Source: Byssovorax sp.
GTDB lineage: Bacteria; Myxococcota_A; Polyangia; Polyangiales; Polyangiaceae
DNA: 60,963 nt
NCBI GenBank assembly: GCA_025362495.1
Contig: JANYGI010000054.1
Location: forward strand, 1-60,963
Reading direction: 5' to 3'
Shown here: piece by piece, positions 37,076 through 45,783 of the stretch
How positions within the stretch are numbered: position 1 is the stretch's first letter
How the letters are laid out: each line of letters starts with the position of its first letter
Position numbers and translations under genes: made by a program
Notes under the pieces: model-generated
What the model saw: the letters and a program-made list of their open reading frames with translations, nothing else
Databases searched by the model: none
Told to the model about the DNA's origin: nothing

Positions 37076-37324
37076 ATGAGCCCCACCGAGAAGAGCCCCG
37101 CAGAGCCAAAGGCAGATCCCGCAGCCTCGCCGCCGAGCGGGCTCGGCATCCTGTTCCTCGCGGCGGCGCTGGCGCTGATGCTCGTGCTCTCGTTCGTCGC
37201 GTTGATCGCGTACATGGCGTTCTCTCCGCAGAAGACCGTCAATCCGCCGTCGCTGCCCTCCGCTCGACCGGCGCACGAGGGGCAGTGGCTAGCCCCGGGC
37301 ATGGCGATCGATCGGCGCACGTGA
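37076..37324 (+). CDS. Small single-pass membrane protein
   Basis: An 82-residue protein with a Pro/Ser/Lys-rich N-terminus, one transmembrane helix (about residues 23-48, ILFLAAALALMLVLSFVALI) and a short Pro-rich tail. Its stop overlaps the GTG start of the GGDEF-EAL gene by four bases (GTGA), so the two are translationally coupled and probably work together. No family recognised. Confidence 0.65.
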   Translation: MSPTEKSPAEPKADPAASPPSGLGILFLAAALALMLVLSFVALIAYMAFSPQKTVNPPSLPSARPAHEGQWLAPGMAIDRRT

Positions 37325-39129
37325 GCGTATTGCTGGCGTGCGCGGTGCTCTACGATGCCGCGGTGGCAAGGAGTGACGACAGTCCAGGTCTCGAGCTCGA
37401 CGATCTCGACGCGCTCGACGAGGCCCCGCGGGCGTCGACCACCCCGACGCCGCGCGCGCCCGAGGGCCTCGCCGCGTGCCTCTCGGAGGTCGGCATCGCG
37501 GTGATCGAGACCGACGCCACGTCGGCCGTGCGGACGCTCAACGCCGCAGCAGAGCGCCTGACGGGCTGGGCCCAGGCTCGGGCCCTGGGGCAGCCGCTCG
37601 ACAGCGTTTTCCGCGTTATCGCGCCCAGCAGCGGTGGGCCGGACTCGGTCCGATCGCAGGATCTCGGCGCGGCGCCGCAGGAGCACACGGCCCTGATCGA
37701 GCGCCCCGATGGCCAGGTGATCCCCGTCCGCCACGTGCTCGGCAAGAACGACGCTGGCACGGGCAGCCTCGTCGTCTTTCGCGACGTCAACGCCCAGCAG
37801 TTCCTCGCGCTCCAGCTCGCCCGCCAGGCCCGCTACGACGTGCTCACTGGCCTGCTCAACCGCCAGGCCTTCGGCGAGCGCCTGGAGGGCGTGCTCGCCG
37901 AGCACCGGCGGAGCGGCGGCCGGAGCGCGCTGATTCACTTCGATCTCGATCGCTTCCGCCTCGTCAACGCCACCTGCGGCCACGAGGCGGGCGACGATCT
38001 CCTGCAGTGGGTGGCGACTCGACTCCACGAGTTCGTCGGCCCGTCCGATTCGGCAGGCCGGATCGGAGGCGACGAGTTCGCGCTCCTGCTCGTCGGCCGC
38101 GAGCTGGGCGAGGCCGAGCGCCTCGCGCGCGACGTGCAGCGCCGCTTGCTGGAGTTTCGCTTCGGCTTCGAAGAAAAGACGTTCTCCGTCGGAGCGAGCT
38201 TTGGCCTGGTCTCGTTCGACGCCGAGATGCGCCGCTCGGCCGACGTGTCGAGCGCCGCGGACCACGCCTGTCGTCAGGCCAAGGACGCCGGGCGCGGCCG
38301 GATCTCGGTCTACGTCGAGGACGCGGCGATGGCCCAGACCCGGAGCTCGATTCAATGGGTCGCCTCGATTCAAAGGCACCTCGAAGACGGCGGGCTCCGC
38401 CTCTTCGGCCAGAGCATCCACGCGCTCTCGCCCGGCGCCGGCGTCGGCGCGCACTTCGAGGTGCTCTGTCGCCTGGTCGGTGAGGACGGCCAGCTCCACT
38501 CCCCGGTCGGCATCATCCAGGCGGCCGAGAACGCCGGCCTGATGGACGCCATCGATCGCTTCGTCGTGCGTCACGCCCTCCGCGCCGTGGGCTCGTTGCC
38601 CCAGCGTGCCTTGCGGCGGCTCGAGACCTGCGCGATCAACCTCTCGGGGATATCGCTCCTCCGCGAGGGGCTGCTCGACTACATCGTCGACGAGATGCAG
38701 CGCGCCAGCGTGCCTCCGAGCAAGATCTGCTTCGAGATCACCGAGACGTCGGCGCTGGCAAACCTCGGTGAGGTCCTGTGGCTGATGCAGGAGCTCGGCG
38801 GCATGGGCTGCCGCTTCGCCATCGACGATTTCGGGAGCGGCCATGCGTCGTACGGTTACCTGGAGACGCTGCCGGTCGACTACCTGAAGATCGACGGCGT
38901 GTTCATCCGCGACCTCACCGACAACGCCCTTCACCGCGCCATCGTCGAGTCGGTCCACCGCATCGGCTGCACCCTCGGGATCAAGACGGTGGCCGAGTCG
39001 GTGGAGACGCAGCCCGTCGCCGACATGCTCGCCGGGATGGGCGTCCACTACGCGCAAGGGTGGCTGTACGGCCGCCCCAAACCGATCAGCGAGATCTGCG
39101 CCGAGCTCGACGCGGATCCGAGCGTTTAG
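37321..39129 (+). CDS. PAS-GGDEF-EAL cyclic di-GMP protein
   Basis: A 602-residue protein starting at GTG 37321. Residues about 45-160 form a PAS domain. The GGDEF domain (about 175-340) has the intact signature RIGGDEFALLL, with DVLTGLLNR and HFDLDRFRLVN, so synthesis of cyclic di-GMP is possible. The EAL domain (about 350-595) has EVL instead of EAL (FEVLCRL), NLSG, FEITET, IDDFGSG and LKIDGVF, all close to consensus, so phosphodiesterase activity is also plausible. It is soluble and coupled to the small membrane protein gene upstream, which may tether it. Confidence 0.92.
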   Translation: MSVLLACAVLYDAAVARSDDSPGLELDDLDALDEAPRASTTPTPRAPEGLAACLSEVGIAVIETDATSAVRTLNAAAERLTGWAQARALGQPLDSVFRVIAPSSGGPDSVRSQDLGAAPQEHTALIERPDGQVIPVRHVLGKNDAGTGSLVVFRDVNAQQFLALQLARQARYDVLTGLLNRQAFGERLEGVLAEHRRSGGRSALIHFDLDRFRLVNATCGHEAGDDLLQWVATRLHEFVGPSDSAGRIGGDEFALLLVGRELGEAERLARDVQRRLLEFRFGFEEKTFSVGASFGLVSFDAEMRRSADVSSAADHACRQAKDAGRGRISVYVEDAAMAQTRSSIQWVASIQRHLEDGGLRLFGQSIHALSPGAGVGAHFEVLCRLVGEDGQLHSPVGIIQAAENAGLMDAIDRFVVRHALRAVGSLPQRALRRLETCAINLSGISLLREGLLDYIVDEMQRASVPPSKICFEITETSALANLGEVLWLMQELGGMGCRFAIDDFGSGHASYGYLETLPVDYLKIDGVFIRDLTDNALHRAIVESVHRIGCTLGIKTVAESVETQPVADMLAGMGVHYAQGWLYGRPKPISEICAELDADPSV

Positions 39130-42034: not shown

Positions 42035-43765
42035 ATGAGCCGACGTGCATTCTCGCTGTTCTGGCTCTTTGTCGCGCTCCTCTCGGGCTGCGATAAGCCC
42101 ACGAGCGACTCGGCTCCCGCCGCGTCGGGCTCGAGCGCCCCGCCGAGGGCGAGCGCCTCGGCCTCCACCGCGCCGGCGCTCGCGAGCGCGCTCACCATCA
42201 TTGTCGCTTACGGGAGCGAGAAGAAGACCTGGCTCGAAGAGCAGGCCGCCGCCTTCAAGGCCTCGGGCGCAAAGACGAAATCGGGGCGCCCGATCGTGGT
42301 GCAAACCCAGGCCATGGGCTCGGGCGAAGCGGTGCAAGGCATCGTCTCTGGCACGCTCAGACCCACCGTGTTCAGCCCCGCTTCGGCGCTCTACGTGACG
42401 ATGCTCAACAACGCGTGGGCCGCGAAGACCGCGACGGCCAAGCCCATCTCCCCCGCGGGTGAGCCGCTCGTGCTCTCGCCGATCGTGGTCGCGATGTGGA
42501 AGCCGATGGCCGAGGCGCTGGGCTGGCCCGGCAAATCGATCGGCTGGAATGATCTGCTCAAGGTCAACGGCAACCCGAAGGGCTGGGGCGCTCTCGGTCA
42601 CCCGGAGTGGGGCCGCTTCAAGCTGGGCCACACCCACCCCGAGTACTCGAACTCGGGGCTCCAGGCGATCCTGGCCGAGGCCTACGCCGGCGCGAAGAAG
42701 ACGCGCGGCCTCACCGCCGCCGATCTCGACAAGAAAGACACCGTCGCCAAGCTGACCGAGATCGAGCAAACGATCGTTCACTACGGCAAATCCACGGGCT
42801 TTTTCTCGGACAAGATGCTCGCGCGCGGCCCGTCGTACCTCTCGGCCGCGGTGCTCTACGAGAACCTGGTGATCGAGTCGTACGCGAAGCCTGCGAGCAC
42901 GTTCCCCATCGTCGCGGTGTACCCGACCGAGGGGACGTTCTGGTCCGATCACCCGTACGCCGTGCTCGACGCGGACTGGGTCGGCGCCGAGGAGCGCGAA
43001 GGCGCCAAGGCGTTTCTCGATTTCCTCAAGGCGCGGCCCGCGCAGGAGCGAGCCCTCGCGCTCGGGTTTCGCCCTGCCGATCCGACGATCGCCATCGGCG
43101 CGCCCGTCGACGCGGCCCACGGCGTCGACCCGAAGCAGCCGCAAACGCTGCTCGAGGTCCCGAGCGGCGCGGTGCTCGAGAAGCTCATCGCCGTGTGGCA
43201 AACGGCGAAGAAGACCAGCGACGTGATCATGGTCTTCGACATCTCGGGGAGCATGAGCGGCAAGCCGCTCGCCGAGGCCAAGCAGGGCGCGAAGGCCTTC
43301 CTCGGCACGCTGCACGAGCGCGACGACGTGAGCTTGATCTTCTTCAACGGCAACGTGTTCCCGACGATCGGCCCGAAGAAGCTCGGCCCGAGCCGCGCCG
43401 AGCTCGAGGCCAAGATCGACTCGCAGATCGCCGATGGAAACACCGCGCTCTACGACGCCGTCGCGCAGGCGTACGACACCGCGAAGAAGCGCGCCGCGAA
43501 GTCCTCCGCGGCGATCCACGCGGTGATGGTGATGACTGACGGCCGCGACGAGGGCAGCACGCTCAAGCTTCCCGAGCTGACGCAGCGCTTCGCCAGCACC
43601 GACGGCGAGAGCGCGAGCGAGGTGAAGATCTTCACGATCGCCTACGGGGATCAGGCCGATCCGACGATCCTCGCCCAGATCGCCGAGGCCGCGAAGGGCA
43701 CGAGCGCGAAGGGCAGCACGGCGACGATCGTCGAGGTGTACCGCGACATGGCGGCCTTCTTCTGA
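42035..43765 (+). CDS. Lipoprotein with solute-binding-like and VWA domains
   Basis: A 576-residue lipoprotein (lipobox LLSGC, Cys19). Residues about 50-350 resemble a periplasmic solute-binding protein: YGSEKKTWLEEQ, RPTVFSPASALY, FKLGHTHPEYSNSGLQ, TFWSDHPYAVLDADWV and ALGFRPADPTIA. Residues about 390-570 are a von Willebrand factor A domain with an intact MIDAS (VFDISGSMSG, then DGNTALYDAV and MTDGRDEG). It shares long matching segments with the SBP at 44590-45783, so the two arose by duplication. It would display a ligand-binding and an adhesion module on the membrane. The gene is the first of a three-gene operon without ABC permease or ATPase. Confidence 0.85.
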   Translation: MSRRAFSLFWLFVALLSGCDKPTSDSAPAASGSSAPPRASASASTAPALASALTIIVAYGSEKKTWLEEQAAAFKASGAKTKSGRPIVVQTQAMGSGEAVQGIVSGTLRPTVFSPASALYVTMLNNAWAAKTATAKPISPAGEPLVLSPIVVAMWKPMAEALGWPGKSIGWNDLLKVNGNPKGWGALGHPEWGRFKLGHTHPEYSNSGLQAILAEAYAGAKKTRGLTAADLDKKDTVAKLTEIEQTIVHYGKSTGFFSDKMLARGPSYLSAAVLYENLVIESYAKPASTFPIVAVYPTEGTFWSDHPYAVLDADWVGAEEREGAKAFLDFLKARPAQERALALGFRPADPTIAIGAPVDAAHGVDPKQPQTLLEVPSGAVLEKLIAVWQTAKKTSDVIMVFDISGSMSGKPLAEAKQGAKAFLGTLHERDDVSLIFFNGNVFPTIGPKKLGPSRAELEAKIDSQIADGNTALYDAVAQAYDTAKKRAAKSSAAIHAVMVMTDGRDEGSTLKLPELTQRFASTDGESASEVKIFTIAYGDQADPTILAQIAEAAKGTSAKGSTATIVEVYRDMAAFF

Positions 43766-43798
43766 GCGCGGCGCAAGGCACGAGGAGCGAGGCGTAGC

Positions 43799-44593
43799 GT
43801 GGCGAAAGACGACGACAGCGGAGCGAAGAATCCCCTCGGGCGCGTCCTCACGAAGTCGATCCTGAACACCGTGAACCTGGTGGTCGCGGGGTCGGCCGCC
43901 GTCGGCGCGGCGGCGCTGCACTCGATCCCGCTCCTGGCGATCGGCGGCGTGGCGTACGGCGCGCTGGTGGCGTGGGATCTCGCGAGCCCCGCGTTCTGGA
44001 AGAAGGCGCGCAAGAGCGACGCCGAGTCGCTGCCGAGCGCGTCGGACCTCACCGATCAAGGCCTGCGCGAGGTGGTGCGCAACCTCGACGCGGGCCGCGA
44101 GAAGCTCGAGAAGGTGCTCGCCGAGACGCCCGACGCGGTGAAGGGCCACCTCGCGGGCGTGCTCGGATCGATCGAGGAGATGGAGGCCGGCGCCGCGCGC
44201 CTCGTGAAGCGCGCCGAGGATCTCACCCGCTACCTCGCGACGACCGATCTGAACGCCGTGCGCGTCGAGATCCAGAGCCTGATGCACAAGGCGTCGACGT
44301 CGCGCGACGCTGTGACCCGCCAGCAGTACGAGAGCGCCAGGGCCATGCGAGAAGAGCAATTGCGCGCCGTCGACGACATCGCGGGGGCGCGGGATCGCGT
44401 GATGGCCAACCTCTCGCGCATGGTGGCGACGCTCGAAGGCCTCTCGCCCAAGGTGGTGCGGATGCGGGCCCTCGATGCTCAGGCGATGGACGCCCTGTCG
44501 GGGACGATGAACGACGAGCTCGAGCGCATCAATGGCGACATGAAAGAGTTCGAGGAGACGCTCCAGAGCCTCGGAGAGACGATCAACGTATGA
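43799..44593 (+). CDS. Membrane-anchored coiled-coil protein (XpaC-like layout)
   Basis: A 264-residue protein starting at GTG 43799. Two hydrophobic segments near the N-terminus (residues about 22-38 and 41-60) form a membrane hairpin; the remaining 200 residues are nearly all helical and charged, with long heptad stretches (RNLDAGREKLEKVLAETP, LGSIEEMEAGAARLVKRAED, LERINGDMKEFEETLQSL). This layout recalls XpaC/TelA-linked proteins of bacterial stress loci, an inference rather than a clear match. Its stop overlaps the SBP start (ATGA), so stoichiometric production is likely. Confidence 0.75.
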   Translation: MAKDDDSGAKNPLGRVLTKSILNTVNLVVAGSAAVGAAALHSIPLLAIGGVAYGALVAWDLASPAFWKKARKSDAESLPSASDLTDQGLREVVRNLDAGREKLEKVLAETPDAVKGHLAGVLGSIEEMEAGAARLVKRAEDLTRYLATTDLNAVRVEIQSLMHKASTSRDAVTRQQYESARAMREEQLRAVDDIAGARDRVMANLSRMVATLEGLSPKVVRMRALDAQAMDALSGTMNDELERINGDMKEFEETLQSLGETINV

Positions 44594-45783
44594 AGACCAA
44601 GATCATCATCATCGTGGGTTTCCTGGTCGCGGTCGGGGTCATCCTCTTCGTGACGATGAAGCCCGACGGGAGCGGCCCGATGGCCGCCGGCAGCGCCTCG
44701 GCCGCGGCGCTGGGCTCGGCGGTGCCGCCCGCGGGTCAGACCGAGATCTCGATGCTCTACAGCTCCGAGAAGAAAGACTTCATCGAGGCCGCGGCGCAGC
44801 TGTTCCAGAAGGATCACCCCGAGATCAAGCTCACCCTGAACCCCAAAGGCTCCATCGCCGCGGCGCAGGCCATCGTCGATGGCAAAGAGAAGCCCACGGT
44901 GTTCAGCCCCGCCGACACGCTGGTGCAGAACCTGCTCGCGTCGGACTGGCAGACCAAGAATCGCTCTGACCTCTTCGCCACCAGCGGTGACGACGCGCCG
45001 CAGCCGCTGGTGATAACGCCCCTCGTCTTCGTGGCCTGGGAAGACCGCGCCGAGGTGCTGCTCAAGGCCGCCGGCGGGACGATCACCTGGAAATCGATCC
45101 ACAAGGCAGTGACGTCGAACGAGGGCTGGCCGGCGATCAAGGGCAAGGCCGAGTGGGGCTTCGTCAAGCTCGGCCACACCGATCCTACCCAGTCGAACTC
45201 GGGCCTGCAAACGCTGCTCTCGATGACGCTGGAGTTCCACGGCAAGACCACCGGCCTCGAGGTCGGCGACATCCTCAAGCCGAAATACCAGGACTTCATC
45301 AAGGAGCTCGAGAAGGGCGTGCCGAAGTTCGAGGTCTCGACGGGCCAGTTCATGACGGACATGATCCGCTTCGGCCCCTCGAAATACGATATCGCCGTGG
45401 TGTACGAGAACCTCGCGATATCGCAGATCGAGAACGCCCAGGGCCGCTGGGGCAACCTCAAGATCTACTATCCCAGCACCACGCTGTGGAGCGATCACCC
45501 CATCGCCGTCGTCAAGGCCGACTGGGTGACGCCGGCGCAGAAGGCCGCCGCCAAGGTGTGGATCGACTACCTGAAGAGCCGCCCGATGCAGGAGCTGGCG
45601 CTGAGCTTCGGCTTCCGCCCGGCCGATCCGACGGTGCCGATCAAGACCGCCGACGCCAGGAACCCCTTCACCCGCCTGGCCTCGCAGGGCGTGAAGCTCC
45701 AGATCAACCCGATGGCCACGCCGCCCGACGGACAGGTCATTCGCAACCTGATGATGATGTGGTCGCGCGTCGTGCAGAAGTAG
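44590..45783 (+). CDS. Membrane-anchored solute-binding-like protein
   Basis: A 397-residue protein with an N-terminal membrane anchor (IIIIVGFLVAVGVILFV) and no lipobox cysteine, then a solute-binding domain. The same motifs as in the upstream SBP-VWA protein recur: YSSEKKDFIEAAA, KPTVFSPADTLV, FVKLGHTDPTQSNSGLQ, IRFGPSKYDIAVVYENLA, TLWSDHPIAVVKADWV and FGFRPADPTVPI. The VWA domain is absent. Paralogous origin is clear. No ABC transporter genes are near, so it is more likely a sensor or scaffold than a transport protein. Confidence 0.85.
   Translation: MKTKIIIIVGFLVAVGVILFVTMKPDGSGPMAAGSASAAALGSAVPPAGQTEISMLYSSEKKDFIEAAAQLFQKDHPEIKLTLNPKGSIAAAQAIVDGKEKPTVFSPADTLVQNLLASDWQTKNRSDLFATSGDDAPQPLVITPLVFVAWEDRAEVLLKAAGGTITWKSIHKAVTSNEGWPAIKGKAEWGFVKLGHTDPTQSNSGLQTLLSMTLEFHGKTTGLEVGDILKPKYQDFIKELEKGVPKFEVSTGQFMTDMIRFGPSKYDIAVVYENLAISQIENAQGRWGNLKIYYPSTTLWSDHPIAVVKADWVTPAQKAAAKVWIDYLKSRPMQELALSFGFRPADPTVPIKTADARNPFTRLASQGVKLQINPMATPPDGQVIRNLMMMWSRVVQK

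Follow-up and report, generated by a model that had tools for sequence, protein, structure and literature searches.

We analysed a stretch of 60,963 nucleotides from Byssovorax sp. (contig JANYGI010000054.1, positions 1 to 60,963; hereafter the window) and found that three neighbouring genes on its forward strand, at 42035-45783, form a real conserved module without an adjacent importer. They encode a lipoprotein that joins a solute-binding domain to a VWA domain (SV), a membrane hairpin protein with a helical C-terminal part (CC), and a membrane-anchored solute-binding protein (SBP) that is a paralog of the first domain. We read the trio as most likely an importer-less envelope sensor or scaffold, and give this reading an even chance of being right. 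The features are given below with the evidence for each, starting from the list of open reading frames (ORFs); MIDAS stands for metal ion-dependent adhesion site and pLDDT for predicted local distance difference test.

42035..43765, + strand: SV, a lipoprotein of 576 aa with SBP_bac_11 and VWA domains (ORF; Pfam; lipobox).
42200..43072, + strand: solute-binding domain of SV, residues 56-346 (PF13531, 8.5e-18; E276 and R346 identical in 35/35 aligned domains).
43220..43696, + strand: VWA domain of SV, residues 396-554 (PF00092, 1.1e-15; model pLDDT; Foldseek).
43238..43252, + strand: MIDAS DxSxS of SV, D402-S406, completed by T470 and D502 (invariant in a 12-row alignment).
43799..44593, + strand: CC, 264 aa from a GTG start, a predicted membrane hairpin followed by a helical C-terminal part (ORF; hydropathy; low-confidence model).
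43859..43981, + strand: hydrophobic hairpin of CC, residues 21-61 (hydropathy windows; both sides net positive).
44590..44593, + strand: ATGA, the 4 bases shared by the stop of CC and the start of SBP (7/9 trio loci have an overlap of this length).
44590..45783, + strand: SBP, a membrane-anchored solute-binding paralog without VWA, 397 aa (ORF; PF13531, 1.5e-18; hydrophobic residues 5-23).

The ORF list, Pfam and the alignments bear out what an earlier note had read from the letters of this DNA, namely the ORFs, the 4-base overlap, the domains of SV with its MIDAS, and the motifs shared by both binding domains (VFSPA, KLGHT, SNSGLQ, FWSDHP/LWSDHP and GFRPADPT). The SBP_bac_11 match exceeds the curated Pfam cut-off in SV and in SBP, and for CC Pfam gives no match above a curated cut-off. 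The lipobox of SV reads LSGC, with Cys 19 as its last residue and Asp at +2. Each of the MIDAS residues D402, S404, S406, T470 and D502 is invariant in the 12 aligned rows, and DxSxS is present in all 17 SV proteins. For SV, CC and SBP, each compared with two relatives, the nonsynonymous substitution rate (dN) is below the synonymous rate (dS). The codon-score gene caller was first trained on a gene set including the three trio genes, which makes its backing of these genes circular in part.

Next to the motifs, the earlier note had asked whether the trio is conserved as a unit, and it is. The SBP query matched 11 of 235 Myxococcota genomes, and the SV profile matched 12 of 377. Nine of the 12 matching genomes carry the trio in the same order and on the same strand (G000, which holds the window, G240, G196, G228, G087, G164, G304, G311 and G108), where the SV match of G240 has the same contig number and coordinates as that of G254, the genome of the metagenome-assembled locus L005. 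G061 has SV and CC and no SBP match, its contig ending 0.8 kb later; SV is interrupted by a contig end in G096, and G066 has a lone SBP. The 4-base overlap of CC and SBP recurs in seven of the nine trio loci. The proteins flanking different trios fall in different families (10 flanking proteins scanned). The module is spread patchily: for SBP, identity to the window is 62% in G087 and G228, which are phylum-level relatives, versus 43% in G311 of the same order, and for SV it is 54-55% versus 48%. This patchy distribution fits joint transfer of the module, without proving it.

The lack of an adjacent importer was judged by the permease family PF00528. No match lies within 10 kb of the module, or up to the contig end, in nine genomes (eight trio genomes and G061); one flank was short in G196, G304 and G108 and both were short in G061, and G164 lay outside the search. 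The window, which is the whole of its contig, has no PF00528 match. Elsewhere, each of the same nine genomes has between 11 and 24 PF00528 matches. Those closest to the trio on its own contig are at about 14 kb in G087 and about 213 kb in G304, and the other seven genomes have none on the contig. The 10 flanking proteins scanned, to which the search for ATP-binding cassette (ABC) ATPases was confined, include neither a permease nor an ABC ATPase. Permeases as regular neighbours, which the earlier note had named as a refuting result, were looked for and not found.

Both binding domains retain the signatures of a pocket. Glu 276/273 and Arg 346/343 (SV/SBP) do not vary among the 35 domains, of which 29 to 34 also preserve the GS, SxSG and Tyr positions. 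SBP relatives with solved structures are mostly sulfate-type binders (1sbp, 5um2, 6ddn); 3cfz, named UPF0100 and presumably of the tungstate-binding kind, is also among them. NCBIfam models gave matches to sulfate SBP (8.8e-6) and tungstate WtpA (1.8e-4). With HMMER, the GS loop, the W/Y-E-N segment and the R-P segment were in register with at least one solved sulfate-type chain, at weak E-values, and we take the aligned positions to be those which contact the oxyanion in the solved sulfate-type binders. The ligand may be an oxyanion, judged from these sequence signatures. Among eight window-type trios (16 domains), SV and SBP each have their own invariant residue at six positions, e.g., S117 versus D109. 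Hence, the two domains may not bind alike.

The solute-binding regions of SV and SBP share 36% identity over 349 columns (E 7e-62). The alignment stops at SV 388 and SBP 391, before the start of the VWA match at SV 396, and SBP thus resembles SV minus VWA. We built an unrooted tree from 35 solute-binding domains, 17 from SV and 18 standalone. A single branch separated the two sets with a support of 94/98 in a first tree, in which 7 of the 17 SV rows ended at residue 370; repeated with cleaner trimming, the split received 85/88, and 95/92 after removal of four long-branched rows. On both sides of the tree, the proteins of Deinococcus, Variovorax, Sphaerotilus, Nonomuraea and G108 group in a subclade with full support. 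Because matching subclades occur on both sides, the duplication is placed before the split of the myxobacterial kind from the TelA-linked kind. The pairings of the window with G196 and of G228 with G087 also recur among SV and standalone domains. The finer branching differs between the sides with weak support, and the placement of the Thiodictyon SBP is unsure. From this tree, the duplication of SV and SBP is ancient and not local. The earlier note had proposed one duplicated domain that gained or lost VWA: the homology stands, a local origin does not, and the tree, being unrooted, is compatible with gain and with loss alike. Pairwise distances of SV and SBP run in parallel (r 0.97 over 91 pairs from 14 loci; r 0.94 over 28 pairs from the eight myxobacterial loci), where the pairs are non-independent and common descent adds to the correlation.

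Structure models were informative for the VWA domain. The SV model, built from a 4-row alignment, has a mean pLDDT of 54.8 and is reliable in VWA only, where most ten-residue blocks reach 75-93 and one block 53. Foldseek matched the modelled VWA to VWA domains, including matrix- and receptor-type ones, which is typical of the fold. The CC model is all-helical and poor, with a mean pLDDT of 55.9.

Two genomes, with one case each, place relatives of these proteins beside kinases. G219 (L037:76-1911, contig C26) encodes one protein in which a Ser/Thr kinase, whose N-terminus is lost at the contig end, continues through a hydrophobic segment into an SBP_bac_11 domain of the kind seen here. In G061 (L036:609-6612, contig C320), a hybrid histidine kinase, a response regulator, SV and CC stand in a row on one strand, with 28 bases between the end of the regulator ORF and the SV ORF. 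Both the kinase-SBP fusion and the histidine kinase with its response regulator favour the sensor idea.

Relatives of the trio also occur outside Myxococcota; 13 plasmid records have an SV-like match, and nine of these were examined. The order SBP-TelA-SV-CC is found in plasmid records of Variovorax and Sphaerotilus and, by tblastn without annotation, in Nonomuraea. Deinococcus has SBP-SV-CC, Miltoncostaea SV-CC, and Thiodictyon SV-SBP together with a protein without similarity to the other components. Streptomyces NBC_00564 has SV with a hypothetical protein of hydrophobic N-terminus, and Streptomyces NBC_01483 and NBC_01450 have a TelA-type SBP, and within 7 kb of it neither SV nor TelA gives a match. 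Standalone SBPs of the window kind and of the TelA-linked kind are homologous (hhalign 99.5%, E 1.8e-22). Two cyanobacterial plasmids have SV-like genes with no CC or separate SBP match, and in the one scanned, Pfam detects VWA only. Queries with CC against plasmids gave no match at E 0.1. In the plasmid of Variovorax sp. SRS16 (L026:13286-19236), the TelA-SV locus is followed, about 3 kb downstream, by genes annotated as Wadjet components. In the cyanobacterial plasmids (L024:4686-12323 and L029:1-10452), genes with a CHAT-domain or caspase-family annotation are found upstream of the SV-like VWA proteins, of which Pseudanabaena has two in tandem.

In the mechanism that we infer, SV as a lipoprotein and SBP as an anchored protein would display, on the outer side of the cytoplasmic membrane, a pair of related solute-binding domains. 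Depending on the ligand state, the VWA domain of SV with its predicted metal-binding MIDAS would attach to a partner, be it SBP, CC or the envelope, and in doing so would form a complex. The helical tail of CC, for which the charge pattern predicts a cytoplasmic location, would relay this state inward as a signal or scaffold the membrane. TelA would be the inner partner in other lineages, where the middle protein can be XpaC-like. Since such TelA/XpaC-like partners occur elsewhere, we see in the module what looks like an arm that faces outward and is related to the TelA/XpaC loci of envelope stress. The content and order of the genes, their inheritance together, the preserved pocket and MIDAS signatures, the lack of a PF00528 permease close by and the topology read from hydropathy are shown; the ligand class, the signal and its direction, and the complex are conjectural. 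We regard this sensor mechanism as the best inference, at about even odds.

Several results weigh against it. TelA (PF05816) is found in 0 of 10 SV genomes (nine trio genomes and G061), and in 0 of 30 among the window's genome and relatives. XpaC (PF10112) was not found in 9 of the 10 SV genomes; the exception, the middle gene of the G108 trio, matches at 2.6e-6 and 28.0 bits, below the curated cut-off of 29.8. The PF10112 model matched 1 of 14 control genomes and gave no match in B. subtilis, so distant XpaC proteins may be missed. Myxococcota overall have TelA in 8 of 235 genomes and XpaC in 5 of 235. Seven myxobacterial TelA stretches (3.3 to 16 kb, four with XpaC) contain no SV or SBP by tblastn at 1e-3, which was used for L096, L098 and L099 in place of poor gene calls. 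TelA loci without SV and SBP imply that the TelA/XpaC and trio modules are separable. Compared with XpaC or TelA-type CC, the window CC reached only 4.1%, 2.4% and 30% in hhalign; as a yardstick, the window CC group and distant CCs (G061, Miltoncostaea, G311) gave 98.1% (E 8.7e-14), and TelA-type CC and XpaC gave 44.9% (E 2.2e-4). Beyond TelA, SBPs of this kind occur without SV too, as lone genes in G066, G216 and G221. The matches to oxyanion binders are weak, and the SV query found only VWA-region matches among solved structures. The AlphaFold models of the solute-binding domain of SV and of CC are poor, and the G219 fusion comes from a contig of 5.4 kb in a genome whose contamination is 5%.

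Homology of the window CC to XpaC or TelA was tried as a candidate with Pfam on five orthologs, at E up to 10, and with hhalign, and was not demonstrated. The earlier note had placed VWA proteins with solute-binding domains and TelA/XpaC-like proteins near bacterial stress loci. Relatives of SV and SBP do adjoin TelA in Variovorax, Sphaerotilus and Nonomuraea and, with a match below threshold, an XpaC-like protein in G108; the window CC shows no secure similarity to XpaC, and the trio genomes lack TelA.

Among other explanations, direct membrane protection is unlikely, and fares best. Here, SV, SBP and CC would build a membrane scaffold that makes the envelope stronger, the role suggested for TelA in Ter systems, and ligand binding would be structural or a vestige. 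The TelA neighbours in three genera agree with it, as does PMC7824862, which counts TelA among the components forming sub-membrane structures. The invariant Glu and Arg and the largely kept other pocket positions count against it, although they could be structural. An adhesion complex, in which a partner on a surface or in the cell wall is held by the MIDAS and polymers are bound by the solute-binding domains, is improbable to a slightly greater degree. A MIDAS-family adhesin of Bdellovibrio has been published (PMC11003981). The MIDAS in every SV protein and the matrix- and receptor-type Foldseek matches would suit an adhesin as well, whereas both paralogs keep the pocket signatures, and the two kinase contexts point to signalling. 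To our knowledge, TelA is not a usual adhesin partner, which we also count against adhesion. Orphan solute-binding proteins that serve an ABC permease encoded far away, with accessory roles for VWA and CC, are quite improbable: both domains are SBP_bac_11 with sulfate-type relatives and permeases exist elsewhere in the genomes, yet in the nine genomes searched none lies within 10 kb or up to the contig end, and all eight SBPs of window-kind trios are membrane-anchored by hydropathy.

The genes around the module vary. In the window, the upstream neighbour encodes a DUF4920 protein and the downstream neighbour, on the opposite strand, an enoyl-CoA hydratase as read by eye; a GGDEF-EAL signalling protein, also read by eye, lies about 3 kb upstream of the trio (37285-39129). 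Directly downstream of the G087 trio, on the opposite strand, is a NuiA (nuclease A inhibitor-like) protein, which also matches helix-hairpin-helix below threshold (L032:13127-14194). The lone SBP of G221 adjoins a divergent gene with an ABC ATPase domain. PADLOC anti-phage models do not match SV or SBP, and CC matches only the ZorA coiled-coil (E 0.016 and 0.069). Two scans of a viral collection gave no relative of the trio proteins.

Our envelope sensor reading has a wider form, which we put forward tentatively and regard as doubtful: the trio would be the TelA-free form of an undescribed, widespread two-receptor envelope system. Its two ancient paralogs, one with VWA/MIDAS docking, would compare or relay an oxyanion-like signal via the hairpin protein, and kinase-linked and TelA-linked versions would exist elsewhere. 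In several phyla, annotated SV-like proteins carry no assigned function, and the module would be an example of importer proteins reused as receptors.

Literature searches on the domain pair, the database name and TelA/Ter links yielded no description of the module among the papers covered. Proteins annotated as "substrate-binding and VWA domain-containing protein" or similarly in Miltoncostaea, Thiodictyon, Streptomyces and Variovorax are SV homologs (24.6-40.5% identity). This is a database name only, and searches on it and on the domain pair with TelA returned no paper. A different conflict system, mentioned in PMC7159879, has transmembrane helices with a downstream periplasmic-binding domain.

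Compared with known systems, the trio shares the Pfam family SBP_bac_11 with sulfate-type ABC solute-binding proteins, but differs from them by the missing nearby permease, membrane anchoring, the VWA fusion and weak E-values. SV and SBP have the solute-binding family feature of an ABC uptake system (PF13531) and lack its linked permease. The likeness to TelA/XpaC loci is one of neighbourhood: TelA has relatives of SV and SBP and a hairpin protein as its neighbours in Variovorax, Sphaerotilus and Nonomuraea. In Listeria, according to PMC12791056, the lmo1966-lmo1967 operon is similar to XpaC and TelA, and a mutant of the TelA-like lmo1967 has raised nisin and tellurite sensitivity. By the tests made, the trio is not a member of the TelA/XpaC loci and is akin to them in gene content, and placing SV-like proteins in a conserved module with a paralogous receptor, a hairpin protein and, in some lineages, TelA opens a way to test which cues TelA/XpaC-type genes answer.

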